The notes beneath the pieces are model-generated. The model saw nothing but the letters and a program-made list of their open reading frames with translations. It was not told the origin of the DNA and searched no databases. The translations under genes were made by a program, and so were the position numbers. A DNA stretch of 38,251 bases from a virus: IMG/VR virus record IMGVR_UViG_3300025949_000056, positions 1-38,251 of that record, one strand, 5' to 3'. Positions 13,958 through 20,992 of the stretch are shown in pieces; position 1 is the stretch's first letter; each line of letters opens with the position of its first letter.

Positions 13958-14782
13958 TCAGTGCTCCTTCTTCGATCCGAGCGCCCACCCAGCAACACAC
14001 AGGGCTACACCAAGGAGCAGGGCCATGCCGCCGATGCGGAGGAACTTACTGGTCTCCGCACCTGTGTTGGCTAGGGTGTTTGAGGCTGTTGGGCCGGCGC
14101 CCTGAACCATCACCGGCCCAACAGTCGCCTCGGCGGTACCAAAACCGCTACTCGGGTTGCTGCTGTCGGTAAGCGTGGCGGAGGCCGGAGTCGCTTTCAC
14201 AGGCGAGGAGTGCGTTGATGTCTGCGGCGATGTCGTAGCCGATGGTGTGGGCGACGTGGGCGAGGAACTCAGCCCGCTGCTCATCGGAGAGCTGGTCGGC
14301 GAAGGTGGTGTTGTCGTCGACGAAGTGGGCAAAGGTGAAGTTGATGAGGTCGGCGAGGACCCTGTGGTGGTCACCGGCGACGTTAAGGGTGAAGTGACTG
14401 GCGCCGTAGGTGAGCTTGACGTCGAGGCTGATTTCGTCGGGCACGGTTTAGTCGCTTTCTGCGTGCTGGGCGCGGTACCCATAGGAACCCCACCAGGACC
14501 GACGGAGATCGTTCTGGACGGGCTGCTGTGGGACGGCGAGACGGACATCGATCCAGTCGATGAACCACTGGACTTCCCGCTCCAACTCGGCCACGGACCA
14601 TGGCTGTGCGTCGGACACGGTGTTCTCCCTGAAGTAGCGTGAGCGGGCACCAAAGCCCACGGACCAGACAAAAACCCAAGAACGAACAACCCGCCGAAGA
14701 TCAACAACTTTGCCCGCCGGGTCAACCGCCAATCCGGATCCCCACGATGATCCGAATACCGGAACTCATCCATCGGACTCAT
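13958..14782 (-). CDS. Probable sortase-anchored surface protein (LANTG), Ser/Thr/Pro stalk
   Basis: A 274-residue frame. Residues 21-48 are a basic then hydrophobic segment (RRAKLLIFGGLFVLGFLSGP) like a signal or membrane anchor. Residues about 55-225 are a Ser/Thr/Pro-rich stalk. LANTG stands at 237-241, followed by a hydrophobic helix and a basic GSKKEH tail, a textbook cell-wall sorting signal of the LAxTG class used by actinobacterial class E sortases. The ATG overlaps the upstream gene as ATGA and the next gene starts one base after its stop. Oddly, residues 55-212 are overprinted by two convincing genes in another frame, so the stalk may partly be a by-product of their codons. If expressed it would decorate the host envelope, perhaps blocking superinfection. 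Confidence 0.6.
   Translation of the reverse strand: MSPMDEFRYSDHRGDPDWRLTRRAKLLIFGGLFVLGFLSGPWALVPAHATSGRTPCPTHSHGPWPSWSGKSSGSSTGSMSVSPSHSSPSRTISVGPGGVPMGTAPSTQKATKPCPTKSASTSSSPTAPVTSPLTSPVTTTGSSPTSSTSPLPTSSTTTPPSPTSSPMSSGLSSSPTSPTPSATTSPQTSTHSSPVKATPASATLTDSSNPSSGFGTAEATVGPVMVQGAGPTASNTLANTGAETSKFLRIGGMALLLGVALCVAGWALGSKKEH
14148..14444 (-). CDS. Hypothetical protein nested inside wall-anchor gene (98 aa)
   Basis: A 98-residue protein from the GTG at 14444, starting four bases after the preceding nested gene ends. Its codons end in C or G almost throughout, the typical bias of this phage, unlike the overlapping anchor frame. The fold looks natural: strands at the start (EISLDVKLTYGASHFTLNVA), then helices (LADLINFTFAHFVDD; DEQRAEFLAHVAHTIGYDIA). 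No family recognised. The ribosome site is weak, so translation is probably coupled to the upstream nested gene. The codon evidence makes it likely real. Confidence 0.65.
   Translation of the reverse strand: MPDEISLDVKLTYGASHFTLNVAGDHHRVLADLINFTFAHFVDDNTTFADQLSDEQRAEFLAHVAHTIGYDIAADINALLACESDSGLRHAYRQQQPE
14448..14618 (-). CDS. Hypothetical protein nested inside wall-anchor gene (56 aa)
   Basis: A 56-residue protein from the GTG at 14618, preceded by AGGGAGAA at good spacing. The sequence is natural and Trp-rich (AQPWSVAELEREVQWFIDWI; RRSWWGSYGYRAQHAE), suggesting a compact helical protein. It lies wholly within the wall-anchor frame, in the same alternative frame as the next nested gene, with a TAA stop four bases before it. 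Function unknown. Confidence 0.6.
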   Translation of the reverse strand: MSDAQPWSVAELEREVQWFIDWIDVRLAVPQQPVQNDLRRSWWGSYGYRAQHAESD

Positions 14783-15138
14783 GACGGAAGCTCGGCAATC
14801 TGCCTCAACGCTTCGCGCACGTCATCAACCGTCAAGTCACCGAGTACGTCGTCGGTGATAGGCGTGTCGTAGCAGAGGTGGCCATCCGAGTCGAGCACCG
14901 CCAGTTCGTAAAGGCCACGGTTACCGCCGTAGGCCATCGGACTGTTGATCACGCTGGCGCCGTAACCATTCGCGAACTTGAACTTCCACTGGTCTCCACC
15001 GTTCAGGCGGCAGTGCTCTGAGGGGGACTCGATGAATGGATTCGAAGAAGGGACCGGTACCGTCGGCGGTTCGTAAGGCGTCGCCGCGTAACGGCCCATG
15101 CTGTCTATCGCGTCCATAATTCGGCTAAGATCGGTCAT
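14779..15138 (-). CDS. Hypothetical early protein (119 aa)
   Basis: A 119-residue protein at the head of the early operon after the switch. The first third is Pro-rich (ATPYEPPTVPVPSSNPFIES), the middle beta-rich (DQWKFKFANGYGASVI; LYELAVLDSDGHLCYD), and the end helical (VDDVREALRQIAELPS). No family recognised. A GAAAGAGGC upstream of 15138 serves as ribosome site. Confidence 0.6.
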   Translation of the reverse strand: MTDLSRIMDAIDSMGRYAATPYEPPTVPVPSSNPFIESPSEHCRLNGGDQWKFKFANGYGASVINSPMAYGGNRGLYELAVLDSDGHLCYDTPITDDVLGDLTVDDVREALRQIAELPS

Positions 15139-15213: not shown

Positions 15214-15342
15214 TCAGGACGCTCGCGAGGCGTGTTGGGGCGGCGAGTCCGTCCAGCCACTTCTGCTGCCGGCATCGCCCCCGATGGGCGCCGGTGAAAC
15301 GGGGGGCTGCTCGCTCTTACGTGTGGCTTCGCCCCGGCGCAT
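15214..15342 (-). CDS. Small basic Pro/Ser-rich protein after cro (42 aa)
   Basis: A 42-residue frame whose ATG overlaps the cro-like stop as TGATG, so it would be translated by coupling. The product is basic then Pro/Ser-rich (MRRGEATRKSEQPPVSPAPI) with no recognised fold. In related phages the gene after cro can be an excisionase, but no helix-turn-helix is visible here. Real coding is uncertain. Confidence 0.35.
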   Translation of the reverse strand: MRRGEATRKSEQPPVSPAPIGGDAGSRSGWTDSPPQHASRAS

Positions 15343-15563
15343 CAGGCTGCGACCTTTGAGAAGAAGCTGCTCACCGGCACGTTCAGGAAGGTCGCTATCT
15401 CCTGAAGGTCTTCGATCCGGAACGAGGCCTTGCCTGCGAGGCGTCGGCTGATCGTGGCCTGGGTTACGCGCAGATGTCGGGCCAAATCGCCCTGTTGCTT
15501 CTGCTGCCGGGCCATCTCTGCCCGCACCTCCGCCGCTACTGCTTCGGTCAGAGTTTGCGTCAT
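15342..15563 (-). CDS. Cro-like helix-turn-helix regulator
   Basis: A 73-residue XRE-type protein. The helix-turn-helix is about residues 22-45 (QQGDLARHLRVTQATISRRL), followed by FRIEDLQEIATFLNVP, the usual HTH_3 ending. It is divergent from the repressor gene and heads the long leftward early operon, the position of a Cro. Residues 10-20 (AAEVRAEMARQ) are identical to residues 22-32 of the repressor, showing common descent. It ends in KVAA, like the short -AA ends of the repressor and integrase. The promoter is so close that the mRNA may be leaderless. Confidence 0.82.
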   Translation of the reverse strand: MTQTLTEAVAAEVRAEMARQQKQQGDLARHLRVTQATISRRLAGKASFRIEDLQEIATFLNVPVSSFFSKVAA

Positions 15564-15611: not shown

Positions 15612-15641
15612 ATATGCGTCCGCGTGTCGCTTACATGCCAG

Positions 15642-15698
15642 GGATGTAGATCACGCTCTGTGCCCGTTGCTACATCCGTGCATGGGATATACGCTCTG
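15642..15698 (+). promoter_or_regulatory. Repressor promoter region with inverted and direct repeats
   Basis: GGATGTAG (15642-15649) and CTACATCC (15670-15677) form a perfect 8-bp inverted repeat, weakly extended by CATG on both sides. ACGCTCTG occurs as a direct repeat at 15653-15660 and 15691-15698. A weak TTGCTA (15667) and TATACG (15688) could form the repressor promoter, ending only ten bases before the ATG at 15702. These look like autoregulatory sites. Confidence 0.4.
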
Positions 15699-15701
15699 AG
15701 C

Positions 15702-16091
15702 ATGACAAGTGCACCGATTGACGAATACACGCCACCGGATCTGGATCGCTACACACGCCTGATCGCTGCCGAGGTCAGGGCTGAGATGGCACGCCAGAAC
15801 ATCACTCAGACGGCGATCGCCAGGAATGTCCTGGGCACCTACCCGTCGAAGGCTCAGCCACGCTTCAAGGGCCTGATCCCCTTCACGGCCGCTGAGCTGC
15901 TAGCTATCGCCGATTACCTCGACACAGATGTCGTCCAGTTCCTCGCCGCAGCCAAGGGCAACCGGCCTACACCCTTCGGGGGCGTCATAGGTTCTCAACG
16001 GTACGAGGAGTCGTACATGTCACTCATCGCTGGTACGGCCGAGATTACGTCTCCTCGGACCGGACAGCTAGCTCTGGTCGGCGCTGCGTAA
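15702..16091 (+). CDS. Immunity repressor with possible degradation tag
   Basis: A 129-residue protein from the ATG at 15702; a GTG 26 codons upstream would run through the promoter repeats and is unlikely. Residues 15-80 form a helix-turn-helix domain (TQTAIARNVLGTYPSKAQPR; FTAAELLAIADYLDTDVVQF) sharing AAEVRAEMARQ with the Cro-like protein. The last about 44 residues (from 86) have no clear fold and end in LALVGAA, resembling an ssrA-type tag. Order and orientation match BPs-type phages in which attP lies inside the repressor gene and integration removes the unstable tail. The repressor role is strongly suggested; attP inside the gene is inference. Confidence 0.72.
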   Translation: MTSAPIDEYTPPDLDRYTRLIAAEVRAEMARQNITQTAIARNVLGTYPSKAQPRFKGLIPFTAAELLAIADYLDTDVVQFLAAAKGNRPTPFGGVIGSQRYEESYMSLIAGTAEITSPRTGQLALVGAA

Positions 16092-17548: not shown

Positions 17549-19948
17549 TTAGTTGGTCGTGACCGTGACCAAAGGGGCAGAACTAGACGTCACCGACACC
17601 AACGGCGCAGCAGAGGACACCGCTGTGACCAAAGGTTGGGTGGATCCGGTGACGGTGATCGGTAGGACCGCGGGGTTGGGGCCGGCGCCCGAGATGGTCG
17701 GGGCGGGAGCTGCCGTCACCACGATCGCCTTGACGGCTAGAACAACCGCGCCGACGGTTACGGTGGGCGGTTTAGCCAATGCAGTGGCAGTCGCAACGAC
17801 AGCCGTGACAGCACCCGTAACAGCGCCTGTGACTGCGGGCGCTCTCGCCGCTGTGACAGCCGAAGCGGCTACAGCAGCAACCGCTCCGGCGGCTGTCCCC
17901 GTGACCGCAGGCGATGCTGCCGCAGCAGTGGCCGCCGCTGTGACCGCTGTGACTGCGGCGTTCGCGACACCGGTAACCGTGGGGGCCTTGGCCTGAGTAG
18001 TGATGGTGGCCACCGTGGCGATCACGGTGCCACCGGACGTGGTACTCACCGCGGGTGCCACCGCCACCGTTACAACAGTGGCTGTGACCGCTGGGACGGT
18101 TGCGCCGCCCTGCACTTGGGGGGCGGAGGCGTTGGCGGTGACCGTCGCTGGGCCGCCACCGGAGATGACCGTTTCCCCCGTGATGCCCGGTGCCGGCGCG
18201 GTGGTAGTTGCGGTCGCTACTGTCACGGTGGTCGTGACGTTGATGACCCCAGTCACCACGGGTGGTTTCGCCAGCGTTATCGCGGCAGCTACGACGGCGT
18301 TGACCTGCCCGGTGGAAGCAGCCGACACGGCTGGTGTCGGTGCGACCGCAGCGGTTGTGGCCACCACGGCAGCGACCACAGCAGCACCTGTGACGACAGG
18401 AGGACGCCCCGCCGCTACAGCGGCCGCTGCGACCGCGGTCACAGCGCCACCCCCTGACGCCCCTGGGGGGACAGCAGTGGCCGTGCCGGTAGCAACGACT
18501 GCCGCGACGGTGGCGCCACCAGCAACAGTCGGTGGAACACCGACCGCAGTCGCAGTGGCTGCGGTCGCGATGACCGACGCGTCACCGCTGGACCCAGCTG
18601 TTACTTCGATGTCGGCGTAGAAGTTCGTGTTCGTCGTGCTCGTGGGTTCAGCCAGGCTGGTGCCGTAGGTGAACACCCCACCGCCGGCGATGGAATGCAA
18701 CGGGGAGTTATTGATCGCCGAGGCGAGCTCGCTGCCGGTGAAGGGGTACCCGGACCCTGATCCCTGATCGGGAGTCAGGTAGCCAACCGTGTATGTCTGC
18801 CCTGTGGTGAGGCTGGCGGAGGCTGACCAGTTGATCCACACCCAGGAGTCGTTCGGGTCGCCTGCGACCTGGGTTCTTGAGCCGGACGCGATCAGCGTTC
18901 CGGCGCCGTTCCATAACCCCATGTTGATGGTGGCGTTGTCGTACAGGGAGCGGATCGACGCGAATAGGTAGTACCGTGCCCGGGTCGTCGTGCAGTTGGT
19001 GTCGACGGTGAACTGAACACCTACGTTGACTTGGGAGTCAGCTCCGCCATTCTGTGGGGTTTGGGTCGTGAAGATCGTCGTCGGGGTGCCCCCGCTGCCA
19101 CCAGATACAACAGGCACTGCAGCGGCGGTGACAGCGGCAGCCGCGACGGCTGTGACGGAACCGGTAGCCGTCCCACTGACCGCGGGGGCGGCGGCTGCGG
19201 TAGTAGCCGCTGCGGTAACGGCGGTCACCGCAGCGTTGATGACCCCAGAGACCGCGGGGCCAGGTGCTGCGGTGGTCGCGGTTGCGGTAACGGCGGTGAC
19301 CGAACCGTTCGTGGATCCAGCTTGGATCTCGACGACGATCAGGGAGTACTTCTGCCCGGTCGGGGCGCTCATGCCGTAGGTGTTCGCGCCAGCGGTGCCG
19401 GCGTTGGCGTAGTACTGGATGTAGGCGCAGTAGTGCGCACCATCCTGCGAGCTGATGATGTTCGAACCGGTCGAGCTGTTGACCGTGCGATACGTGGTCG
19501 CGCCAGTAACAGCGTTCCAGTCCGCGCACGCCATCACAACGAAACTGCTCGAAGCGCCAGTGGTGAACGACAACGACGGCGCACCGGTGGTCACCGTCGC
19601 TTTCGCTGACGTGACCGTCCCGGACCCACCAGTGATGCGGATGATCGTGAATCCCCAGTTCACCGCAGTGCCAGTATTCGCCACCGACGCGGTGAACGTC
19701 TGCCCCTGCCCCGTTCCGACAACGGCGGACCAGACGTGGTTTTCTGATGTTGATGCGGCGGAGATCGCCTGCTGACTGGTCCACGAGAACCCGGTCTGCC
19801 CGGTTGGGGTTCCCAGGGTGGTGGTGCCCTCGGACATGCCGACGCAGATCAGCACATCTCCGACCGCGCAGGTGACGCTCACCGTTTTGGTGGTGGTGGC
19901 GTTCTGGTACCCGACCGCTGGGGTGTAGGAGGTGCTGAGCGCAGGCAT
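17549..19948 (-). CDS. Large repeat-containing tail fibre/appendage with DUF4082-like domain
   Basis: A 799-residue protein. Residues 1-210 form a beta-rich head (SYTPAVGYQNATTTKTVSVT; SSSFVVMACADWNAV). Residues 211-284 hold three Ala/Val/Thr/Pro repeats. Residues about 290-450 resemble a DUF4082 carbohydrate-associated beta domain (VQFTVDTNC; MGLWNGAGTLIASGS; YTVGYLTPDQG). Residues 452-753 hold about thirteen more repeats, and a Ser/Thr-rich tail ends the protein. It is the last gene of the late strand, after the beta-helix spike, so a host-surface binding fibre is likely. The repeat DNA is open in several frames, which produces spurious frames on both strands. Confidence 0.72.
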   Translation of the reverse strand: MPALSTSYTPAVGYQNATTTKTVSVTCAVGDVLICVGMSEGTTTLGTPTGQTGFSWTSQQAISAASTSENHVWSAVVGTGQGQTFTASVANTGTAVNWGFTIIRITGGSGTVTSAKATVTTGAPSLSFTTGASSSFVVMACADWNAVTGATTYRTVNSSTGSNIISSQDGAHYCAYIQYYANAGTAGANTYGMSAPTGQKYSLIVVEIQAGSTNGSVTAVTATATTAAPGPAVSGVINAAVTAVTAAATTAAAAPAVSGTATGSVTAVAAAAVTAAAVPVVSGGSGGTPTTIFTTQTPQNGGADSQVNVGVQFTVDTNCTTTRARYYLFASIRSLYDNATINMGLWNGAGTLIASGSRTQVAGDPNDSWVWINWSASASLTTGQTYTVGYLTPDQGSGSGYPFTGSELASAINNSPLHSIAGGGVFTYGTSLAEPTSTTNTNFYADIEVTAGSSGDASVIATAATATAVGVPPTVAGGATVAAVVATGTATAVPPGASGGGAVTAVAAAAVAAGRPPVVTGAAVVAAVVATTAAVAPTPAVSAASTGQVNAVVAAAITLAKPPVVTGVINVTTTVTVATATTTAPAPGITGETVISGGGPATVTANASAPQVQGGATVPAVTATVVTVAVAPAVSTTSGGTVIATVATITTQAKAPTVTGVANAAVTAVTAAATAAAASPAVTGTAAGAVAAVAASAVTAARAPAVTGAVTGAVTAVVATATALAKPPTVTVGAVVLAVKAIVVTAAPAPTISGAGPNPAVLPITVTGSTQPLVTAVSSAAPLVSVTSSSAPLVTVTTN
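17690..18595 (-). repeat. About 13 tandem 22-25-residue Ala/Val/Thr/Pro repeats in fibre gene
   Basis: Coding repeats of residues 452-753 of the fibre. The consensus is roughly G-x-V-x-A-V-x-A-x-A-x-T-x-A-x-x-P-x-V-x-G, for example GAVTAVVATATALAKPPTVT and AAVTAVTAAATAAAASPAVT. The alternating small/hydrophobic pattern with a Pro-rich turn suggests two short beta strands per unit stacked into a rod. Individual units are diverged but in register. Unequal recombination could change length. Confidence 0.7.
19097..19318 (-). repeat. Three further copies of the fibre repeat
   Basis: Residues 211-284 of the fibre, upstream of the DUF4082-like domain, hold three copies of the same unit (GSVTAVTATATTAAPGPAVS; AAVTAVTAAATTAAAAPAVS; GSVTAVAAAAVTAAAVPVVS). 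The globular domain is therefore inserted between two blocks of the same rod-like repeat. Confidence 0.7.
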
Positions 19949-19957
19949 CAGTACCCC

Positions 19958-20992
19958 CTAGACGTCGGTGTTGGAGATGAAAGATGCCTCGCTGTATGAG
20001 CCGGAATAGTCACCGCCGCCGACATCTGACCCGTCGGGGATCCAGTACTTCCCGTCGTTCCCGGAAGTCCCCCACGCCCACGTCAACCCCGACAGCCACG
20101 GGAAGCGGGCCAACATGTTGCTGTCCGCCTGGGTGCGCCACTTGTTCCGCGCCCACGTCGACCCCGTCGCGGTCACCCAATCCAGGTTCGGGTACATCGG
20201 CCCGAACGCCGGCTTCAACAGAGTCCACCACTCGTTGTCGGTGAACGTGATGTTCGTGGCCATGCCGTTGGAGACGCCGAAGCAGATGCCGTACCCGGCG
20301 CCGTAGAACACACTGTTGGTGACCTTGATGTTGGAGAAGGTGCCGTTCTGGAACGCCAGCAGGTTCGTGTTGCCGGTGAACCCGATGATGCAGTGGTCGA
20401 TCCAGATGCCCTTCGCGGTCTCCCCGTTGTTCAGGGTGCCGATGCCGTCGGTGTGATAGGTGTTGTCCGGGCAGGCGTCGTGGATCCAGGTGTCCTGGAT
20501 GAGTAGCCAGTCGGATTGGGTGGCCCCGTTGTCGCCGAAGCAGGTGATGCAGTTACCGAAGCCGCGGAAGTCGCAGTTCGTGATCTGCGTGCCCTTCGCC
20601 ATGGCGGTGCTGCCCCAGTCGCCCATGGCGAACCCGAACTGGTACGAGTTCGCGAACGATGTGGGCGGCCCGGAATCGTTTGGGACGAACGTCCCGTAAT
20701 CCAGCTTCGGACCGGTGCCGGCGGTTTGCAGTCCCCACAGGATGTCTTGGTTGCCGATCTTCGCCTGGAATCCCTGAAAGGTGACGTTGCTGTTCGTGAT
20801 CAGCTTCGTCCCGAAGGAGTAGTTCCGGTACGTGCCGTTGTCCGCGACAGTCAGGCCCGATCCGCTCGCGAGGCTGCCGGCATAGTTCGGTGAGCCTGCG
20901 AACCCGGGGGTGTTGCGGTAGCCGGCGCCGGTTAGGGACGGCTCGACCGTGTTCCGATCCTTGAACGTGGCACCAACAATGTTGATGGCCAC
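19958..20992 (-). CDS. Right-handed parallel beta-helix tail spike-like protein
   Basis: A 344-residue protein with repeated short strands and Asn/Gly turns (ITNCDFRGFGNCITCFGDNG; DGIGTLNNGETAKGIWIDHC; NIKVTNSVFYGAGYGICFGV; NITFTDNEWW), the pattern of pectate-lyase-like parallel beta-helices. IWIDHCIIG resembles the WIDH element of pectate lyase C. It could be a receptor-binding spike or a polysaccharide depolymerase; catalytic residues cannot be assigned by eye. It lies between a small structural gene and the repeat fibre, in what looks like a host-recognition cluster. Confidence 0.72.
   Translation of the reverse strand: MAINIVGATFKDRNTVEPSLTGAGYRNTPGFAGSPNYAGSLASGSGLTVADNGTYRNYSFGTKLITNSNVTFQGFQAKIGNQDILWGLQTAGTGPKLDYGTFVPNDSGPPTSFANSYQFGFAMGDWGSTAMAKGTQITNCDFRGFGNCITCFGDNGATQSDWLLIQDTWIHDACPDNTYHTDGIGTLNNGETAKGIWIDHCIIGFTGNTNLLAFQNGTFSNIKVTNSVFYGAGYGICFGVSNGMATNITFTDNEWWTLLKPAFGPMYPNLDWVTATGSTWARNKWRTQADSNMLARFPWLSGLTWAWGTSGNDGKYWIPDGSDVGGGDYSGSYSEASFISNTDV

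Follow-up and report, generated by a model that had tools for sequence, protein, structure and literature searches.

Can one stretch of phage DNA encode a wall-anchored surface protein in one frame and two small proteins in another? The question is raised by positions 13958-14782 (minus strand) of the window, i.e., the entire 38,251-base virus record analysed here, in which a frame of 274 codons with the ends of a sortase substrate is overlapped by two tandem ORFs, n1 and n2, in a second frame of the same strand. The reading that we favour, with a probability of about 0.52, is that a real gene for a wall-anchored stalk protein lies in the early operon of this phage, and that n1 and n2 are shadows cast by its codons.

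The phage and its early operon

By its gene content the record comes from a temperate, siphovirus-like phage. Its terminase has no relative above 58% identity (best segment) in phage records, IMG/VR or named genomes, and the best relatives lie in phages or genomes of actinobacteria, e.g., Mycobacterium, Streptomyces and Micrococcus. Two divergent HTH genes are likely the Cro-like and repressor genes of the switch, and the stalk gene is located two genes behind the former, in the leftward early operon. The features relevant to the locus are as follows.

26 to 38 kb: tape measure, capsid, portal and terminase genes
15.3-17.0 kb: integrase and two HTH repressor-like genes
15624-16091, plus strand: HTH gene, likely the switch repressor, matching phrog_4583 (transcriptional repressor)
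15342-15563, minus strand: HTH gene, likely Cro-like, also matching phrog_4583 (transcriptional repressor)
14779-15138, minus strand: upstream gene of unknown function, phrog_4074, its stop overlapping the stalk start as ATGA
13958-14782, minus strand: wall-anchored surface protein gene ("stalk"), 274 aa, recognised by its sequence, TIGR01167 and synonymous nulls
14630-14782, minus strand: signal-peptide part of the stalk, codons 1-51, recognised by eye and by hydrophobic windows
14448-14618, minus strand: n1, nested ORF of 56 aa with a GTG start, a possible gene by its codon score and ribosome site
14148-14444, minus strand: n2, nested ORF of 98 aa with a GTG start, a possible gene by its codon score
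13958-14074, minus strand: sorting signal of the stalk, comprising LANTG (residues 237-241), a hydrophobic helix, KKEH and the stop, recognised by TIGR01167
13729-13956, minus strand: downstream gene, 75 aa, starting one base past the stalk stop
11.6-12.8 kb: ERF and RecE-like recombination genes

Elsewhere in the record, a 799-aa protein encoded at 17549-19948 (minus strand), containing numerous degenerate AVTAVTAAATTAAPAPAVSG-type repeats and lacking any Pfam or PHROG match, is probably a tail or surface-binding protein. A gene on the same strand, at 19958-20992, encodes a 344-aa protein that appears beta-helix-like by eye and has no Pfam or PHROG match.

The frame of the surface protein

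The encoded protein consists, in this order, of a signal peptide, a linker rich in S, T, P and G, the LANTG sorting signal, a hydrophobic helix and KKEH, so that the signal peptide and the sorting signal occupy the opposite ends of one unbroken frame. As judged by eye, the signal peptide has a basic n-region, a hydrophobic stretch and the sequence AHA|TS at residues 47-51, with a signal-peptidase-like cleavage predicted after AHA (residues 47-49). In a scan with 19-residue Kyte-Doolittle windows, those exceeding the threshold of 1.6 start at residues 26-28 and 245-253. S, T or P account for 117 of the 186 linker residues (51-236), and G for 16. The NCBI LPXTG-anchor model TIGR01167 (cut-off 15.9 bits) gives 17.7 bits with the C-terminal 62 aa and 16.6 bits at the stalk in a six-frame search of the record, both over the cut-off; the full-length protein, at 8.4 bits, stays under it, which counts against the favoured reading. 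The 65-bit cut-off of NF058583 (LAXTG motif-containing small protein) is missed both by the full-length protein (12 bits) and by its C-terminus (13.7 bits), and neither Pfam nor NCBIfam recognised any domain besides the anchor. LANTG conforms to the LAXTG pattern, the sorting signal of class E sortases in Actinobacteria (PMC5148588). A sortase (PF04203) is absent from the 38,251-base record, and the host's enzyme would therefore be used, in keeping with the favoured reading. The original prediction of a 274-codon frame with a signal segment, LANTG, a hydrophobic helix and KKEH is thus borne out by the sequence and by the match of its C-terminus to TIGR01167.

The frame also fits its surroundings, and the tight operon junctions predicted at both of its ends are indeed present. 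The stalk ATG and the upstream stop share the sequence ATGA (14782-14779), and the stalk TGA is separated by a one-base gap from the ATG of the next gene (13956), the ribosome site of which sits within the KKE codons of the stalk. The stalk's own ribosome site has a value of -2.2 kcal/mol. These junctions, together with the early place behind the Cro-like HTH gene, argue for a genuine member of the operon.

It had been proposed that reading the nested codons one base out yields exactly the Ser/Thr/Pro stalk, and that the stalk may have been created as a by-product of overprinting. In the corresponding null the n1 and n2 proteins were kept fixed and their codons redrawn, 5000 times with phage usage and 4000 times with local usage. 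Over recoded n2 the stalk frame was open in only 0.6% of draws with phage usage and 0.4% with local usage, and the S/T/P content, 0.77 as observed, fell to means of 0.50 and 0.47, respectively, the observed value being reached in none of the 5000 and none of the 4000 draws. Over recoded n1 the frame was often open (0.68 with phage and 0.52 with local usage); here the S/T/P content of 0.54 compares with 0.38 and 0.35 after recoding, and was reached in 0.3% of 5000 draws with phage usage and in 0 of 4000 with local usage. Neither proposal finds support in these figures, as ordinary codons for n1 and n2 rarely leave the frame open over n2 and do not yield the S/T/P content seen. Moreover, the 45 fourfold sites of n2 carry 37 C and 1 G, compared with 36% C and 40% G in the phage (C vs G, p = 5e-12), as expected if the stalk came first; the 26 fourfold sites of n1 carry 15 C and 4 G (p = 0.003). 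Since n2 recodings rarely leave the stalk frame open, lose S/T/P and leave this C excess to be accounted for, the stalk frame owes its form to selection and does not simply fall out of n1 and n2, a conclusion drawn from tests of composition. Either the stalk was selected jointly with n2 or n2 is no gene, and in both cases the stalk is real.

The codons of the stalk are nevertheless less phage-like than those of the nested ORFs: synonymous usage gives z of -2.0 and -3.1 for the stalk, as against -0.1 for n1 and +0.6 for n2, and the non-overlapped stalk ends are unusual as well (z -3.3 and -2.0). This difference speaks against the favoured reading and would suit an arrangement in which n1 and n2 are the only genes, the long frame being open by accident and the end motifs belonging to separate short frames. 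Such an arrangement is very improbable. Under it the frame would be open with a chance of only about 0.68 x 0.006 and would contain far less S/T/P than observed; it would place a signal peptide and a sorting signal in one frame merely by accident, and it would leave the ratio of C to G at the fourfold sites of n2 unexplained. The stalk-frame nulls and the two end motifs in one frame exclude it for practical purposes. The sorting-signal protein is more than chance, and we consider the stalk, with its complete sorting signal, to be real.

The nested frame

The coordinates originally given for n1 and n2 proved correct; together they span stalk codons 55-212, where both frames are open, with start and stop. 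The GTG of n2 lies three bases past the TAA of n1 in the junction TAA-ACC-GTG. The good ribosome site claimed for n1 was found as AGGGAG with -8.0 kcal/mol, a value matched or beaten by 6% of the 1842 minus-strand start codons; that of n2 is weak (-1.8 kcal/mol). Both ORFs had also been credited with the ordinary C/G third-base bias of the phage, which holds roughly for n1 (C 0.44, G 0.33) and fails for n2 (C 0.74, G 0.12). The codon scores of n1 (-3.90) and n2 (-3.81) lie inside the range of the known genes of this phage. On the opposite strand, a 161-aa ORF rich in D, E, V and G extends over the stalk at 14157-14642 and has no PHROG match; it is a composition shadow of the S/T/P codons, and an open antisense frame was dropped as evidence, as this composition accounts for its openness.

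The main alternative to the favoured reading is true dual coding, in which, besides a real stalk gene, n1 or n2 or both are translated, selected genes, read one base earlier than the stalk; we give it somewhat less than an even chance. According to this alternative, n1 would start from its own ribosome site just past the signal-peptide codons and n2 would restart after n1, a sequence-tolerant stalk being a place where two messages can share DNA; the products would be small cytoplasmic early proteins with no assigned role. The fuller claim, that the S/T/P stalk DNA is double-coded for two tandem small early proteins, with about 158 of the 274 codons carrying two messages and the frames mutually shaped, we advance a shade more tentatively. 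Dual coding draws its support from several sources. With the stalk fixed, an open nested frame of the observed gene-likeness arises with P of 0.0008-0.02 for n1 and 0.0008-0.015 for n2, depending on the null, and none of the 27 spurious same-strand ORFs found in the known genes of this phage scores as high. In the nulls with a stalk as sole gene, n1 and n2 score above expectation, which counts against the shadow reading. When the look-elsewhere effect is taken into account by a joint null over the two same-strand frames, P is 0.012 with phage usage and 0.0015 with local usage. Further points in its favour are the ribosome site of n1, the junction between the two ORFs and their ordinary synonymous usage, which the stalk does not share. 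AF2 predictions from single sequences present n1 as a putative helical hairpin (pLDDT 82) and n2 as a putative hairpin plus helices (pLDDT 62.8). Finally, n1, one of eight proteins scanned, has a weak match (E=0.0097) to positions 31-63 of the 74-position profile phrog_3496.

Against this, the threshold of the joint null was the n1 score itself, set after it had been seen, and in a rerun the threshold was therefore varied over four values and the codon table trimmed to 19 genes, leaving out two genes of odd composition and two ORFs that match no family. The joint P for total length then became 0.03-0.12 under phage usage and 0.0007-0.02 under local usage, and that for two or more ORFs was 0.001-0.043 at the three thresholds that two ORFs exceed. 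Overall, the joint P for selection on the nested frame ranges from 0.0007 to 0.12 by the assumptions made on codon table and threshold. When spurious ORFs on both strands are counted, 12 and 5 of the 89 reach the scores of n1 and n2, respectively, all of them antisense. Open second frames are also frequent over real stalks: out of 70 control loci (L039-L108), 27 stalk genes from actinobacterial genomes satisfied the filters at 98 residues, and in 13 of these 27 the second frame is stop-free over 98 codons. Only these stop counts serve as evidence, since the codon scores of the controls were computed with the table of the window phage on other genomes; one control (L100) outscored the window, and it and two others (L082 and L050), all kept among the 27, look by eye like wrong frames. 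An open second frame is by itself not beyond chance, since stalks rich in S/T/P often produce one. Two further arguments for n2 were dropped. Over n2, the stalk has wobble bases that differ from those of the phage (p=0.0007) and not from those of local genes (p=0.41), and the hydrophobic moments of n2 are unremarkable (P 0.14-0.29), which leaves amphipathicity without force. Of the original prediction that both frames are functional, the half concerning the stalk has stood, and n1 and n2 do score as gene-like, to a degree that depends on the null.

Searches for homologues weigh on both readings. No relatives of the stalk, n2, n1 or the 45-aa sorting signal were found in 50,697 phage records, nor any of the stalk, n2, the upstream gene or n1 in IMG/VR, which tells against the stalk gene as well as against the nested ORFs. 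Among the neighbourhoods of ERF genes (L002-L017) there was nothing related to n1, n2 or the stalk and no gene with a sorting signal; a regular-expression match in one of them (L017) was rejected, as it is a hydrophobic tail that lacks the layout of a sorted protein. Searches starting from the exonuclease and from the Cro-like gene each led to a single distant locus (L109 and L110), neither of which contains anything related to the nested region. In 296 actinobacterial genomes there were weak matches only, two for n2 and one for n1: those of n2 were dismissed as chance, one having internal stops (L036) and the other lying within a 328-codon frame (L037), and that of n1 (L038) is weak, with one internal TGA. 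The profile phrog_3496 was found in the window only among 27 records and genomes (0 of the 26 others); it was likewise found in 0 of the 296 genomes, where the controls were silent too, and this count therefore does not show absence. The n2 model had no match in BFVD at E <= 0.001, and among PDB sequences n2 gave nothing at E < 0.6 and n1 none.

The favoured reading, a stalk gene with n1 and n2 as its shadows, accounts for the second frame in simple terms: it would be open and rich in C at its third positions because C is what the stalk requires at second positions. The evidence on the age of the frames points both ways. The extreme C content at the third positions of n2 fits a stalk that came first, or else strong joint selection. 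By the criterion that the frame with the poorer codon usage in an overlapping pair is the younger one, as described in PMC8227390, the poorer usage of the stalk fits a newcomer, and the unusual codons of its non-overlapped ends fit a gene acquired from elsewhere.

Predicted surface role and related systems

The place of the gene in the early operon suggests that the stalk would be synthesised upon induction or at an early stage of lytic growth, its translation probably being coupled to that of the preceding gene. The protein would be exported by the Sec route, its signal peptide removed, and a class E sortase of the host would cut it at LANTG and join the product to peptidoglycan. What would be displayed is a bare S/T/P/G-rich stalk of about 190 residues without a recognisable head. 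It would probably serve to alter the surface of cells that are infected or induced, e.g., by covering a receptor and so hindering further phages. A more specific proposal, compatible with either coding reading, is that the stalk acts as a superinfection shield or decoy through its bulk or through glycosylated Ser/Thr; the headless S/T/P composition and the early operon would fit a surface-modifying role, the stalk has no PADLOC family match, and we regard this proposal as rather unlikely.

If only the surface protein is real, the locus adds one more phage-encoded substrate of sortases, early in position and with a signal of the class E type, and gives a lead on how actinobacterial phages alter the host surface. 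If n1 and n2 are real too, it represents a compact example from nature of a disordered stalk that, being constrained in composition only, leaves room for a second message, with two frames that are separable by synonymous mutations. The locus also carries a warning for gene calling: in GC-rich genomes an S/T/P stalk generates ORFs that look like genes in the frame one base earlier, and these may be called in place of the true gene.

The arrangement was not found described in the literature on phage-encoded LPXTG proteins and overlapping phage genes, as far as titles and abstract openings tell. The viral overprinted genes reviewed in PMC8227390 resemble n1 and n2 in having two open same-strand frames, one of them of low complexity and sequence-tolerant; in contrast to those cases, two tandem ORFs are here nested inside one gene of a tailed phage, and coding in the second frame is only putative. 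Actinobacterial substrates of class E sortases with LAXTG signals include the Streptomyces chaplins ChpA-C (PMC5148588) and CwpA and CwpB of Actinoplanes (PMC13251363). Like them, the stalk has a signal peptide, a LAXTG-type pentapeptide, a hydrophobic helix and a basic tail; unlike them, it is encoded in a phage early operon, has no Pfam or NCBIfam domain beyond the anchor, and is S/T/P-rich with two ORFs in a second frame. The anchor model TIGR01167 was found in 2 of 25 virus and phage records, the window and Microbacterium phage Pumpernickel. In the latter, gp243 (L111; NC_073468.1, 142344-144170), annotated as "membrane protein", ends in LATTG and gives 27.7 bits. It resembles the stalk in being phage-encoded with an LPXTG-type end, and differs from it in being much longer (CDS of 1827 bases), with a long non-S/T/P region before the signal; by its sequence, gp243 is a candidate for a second sortase substrate of an actinophage.
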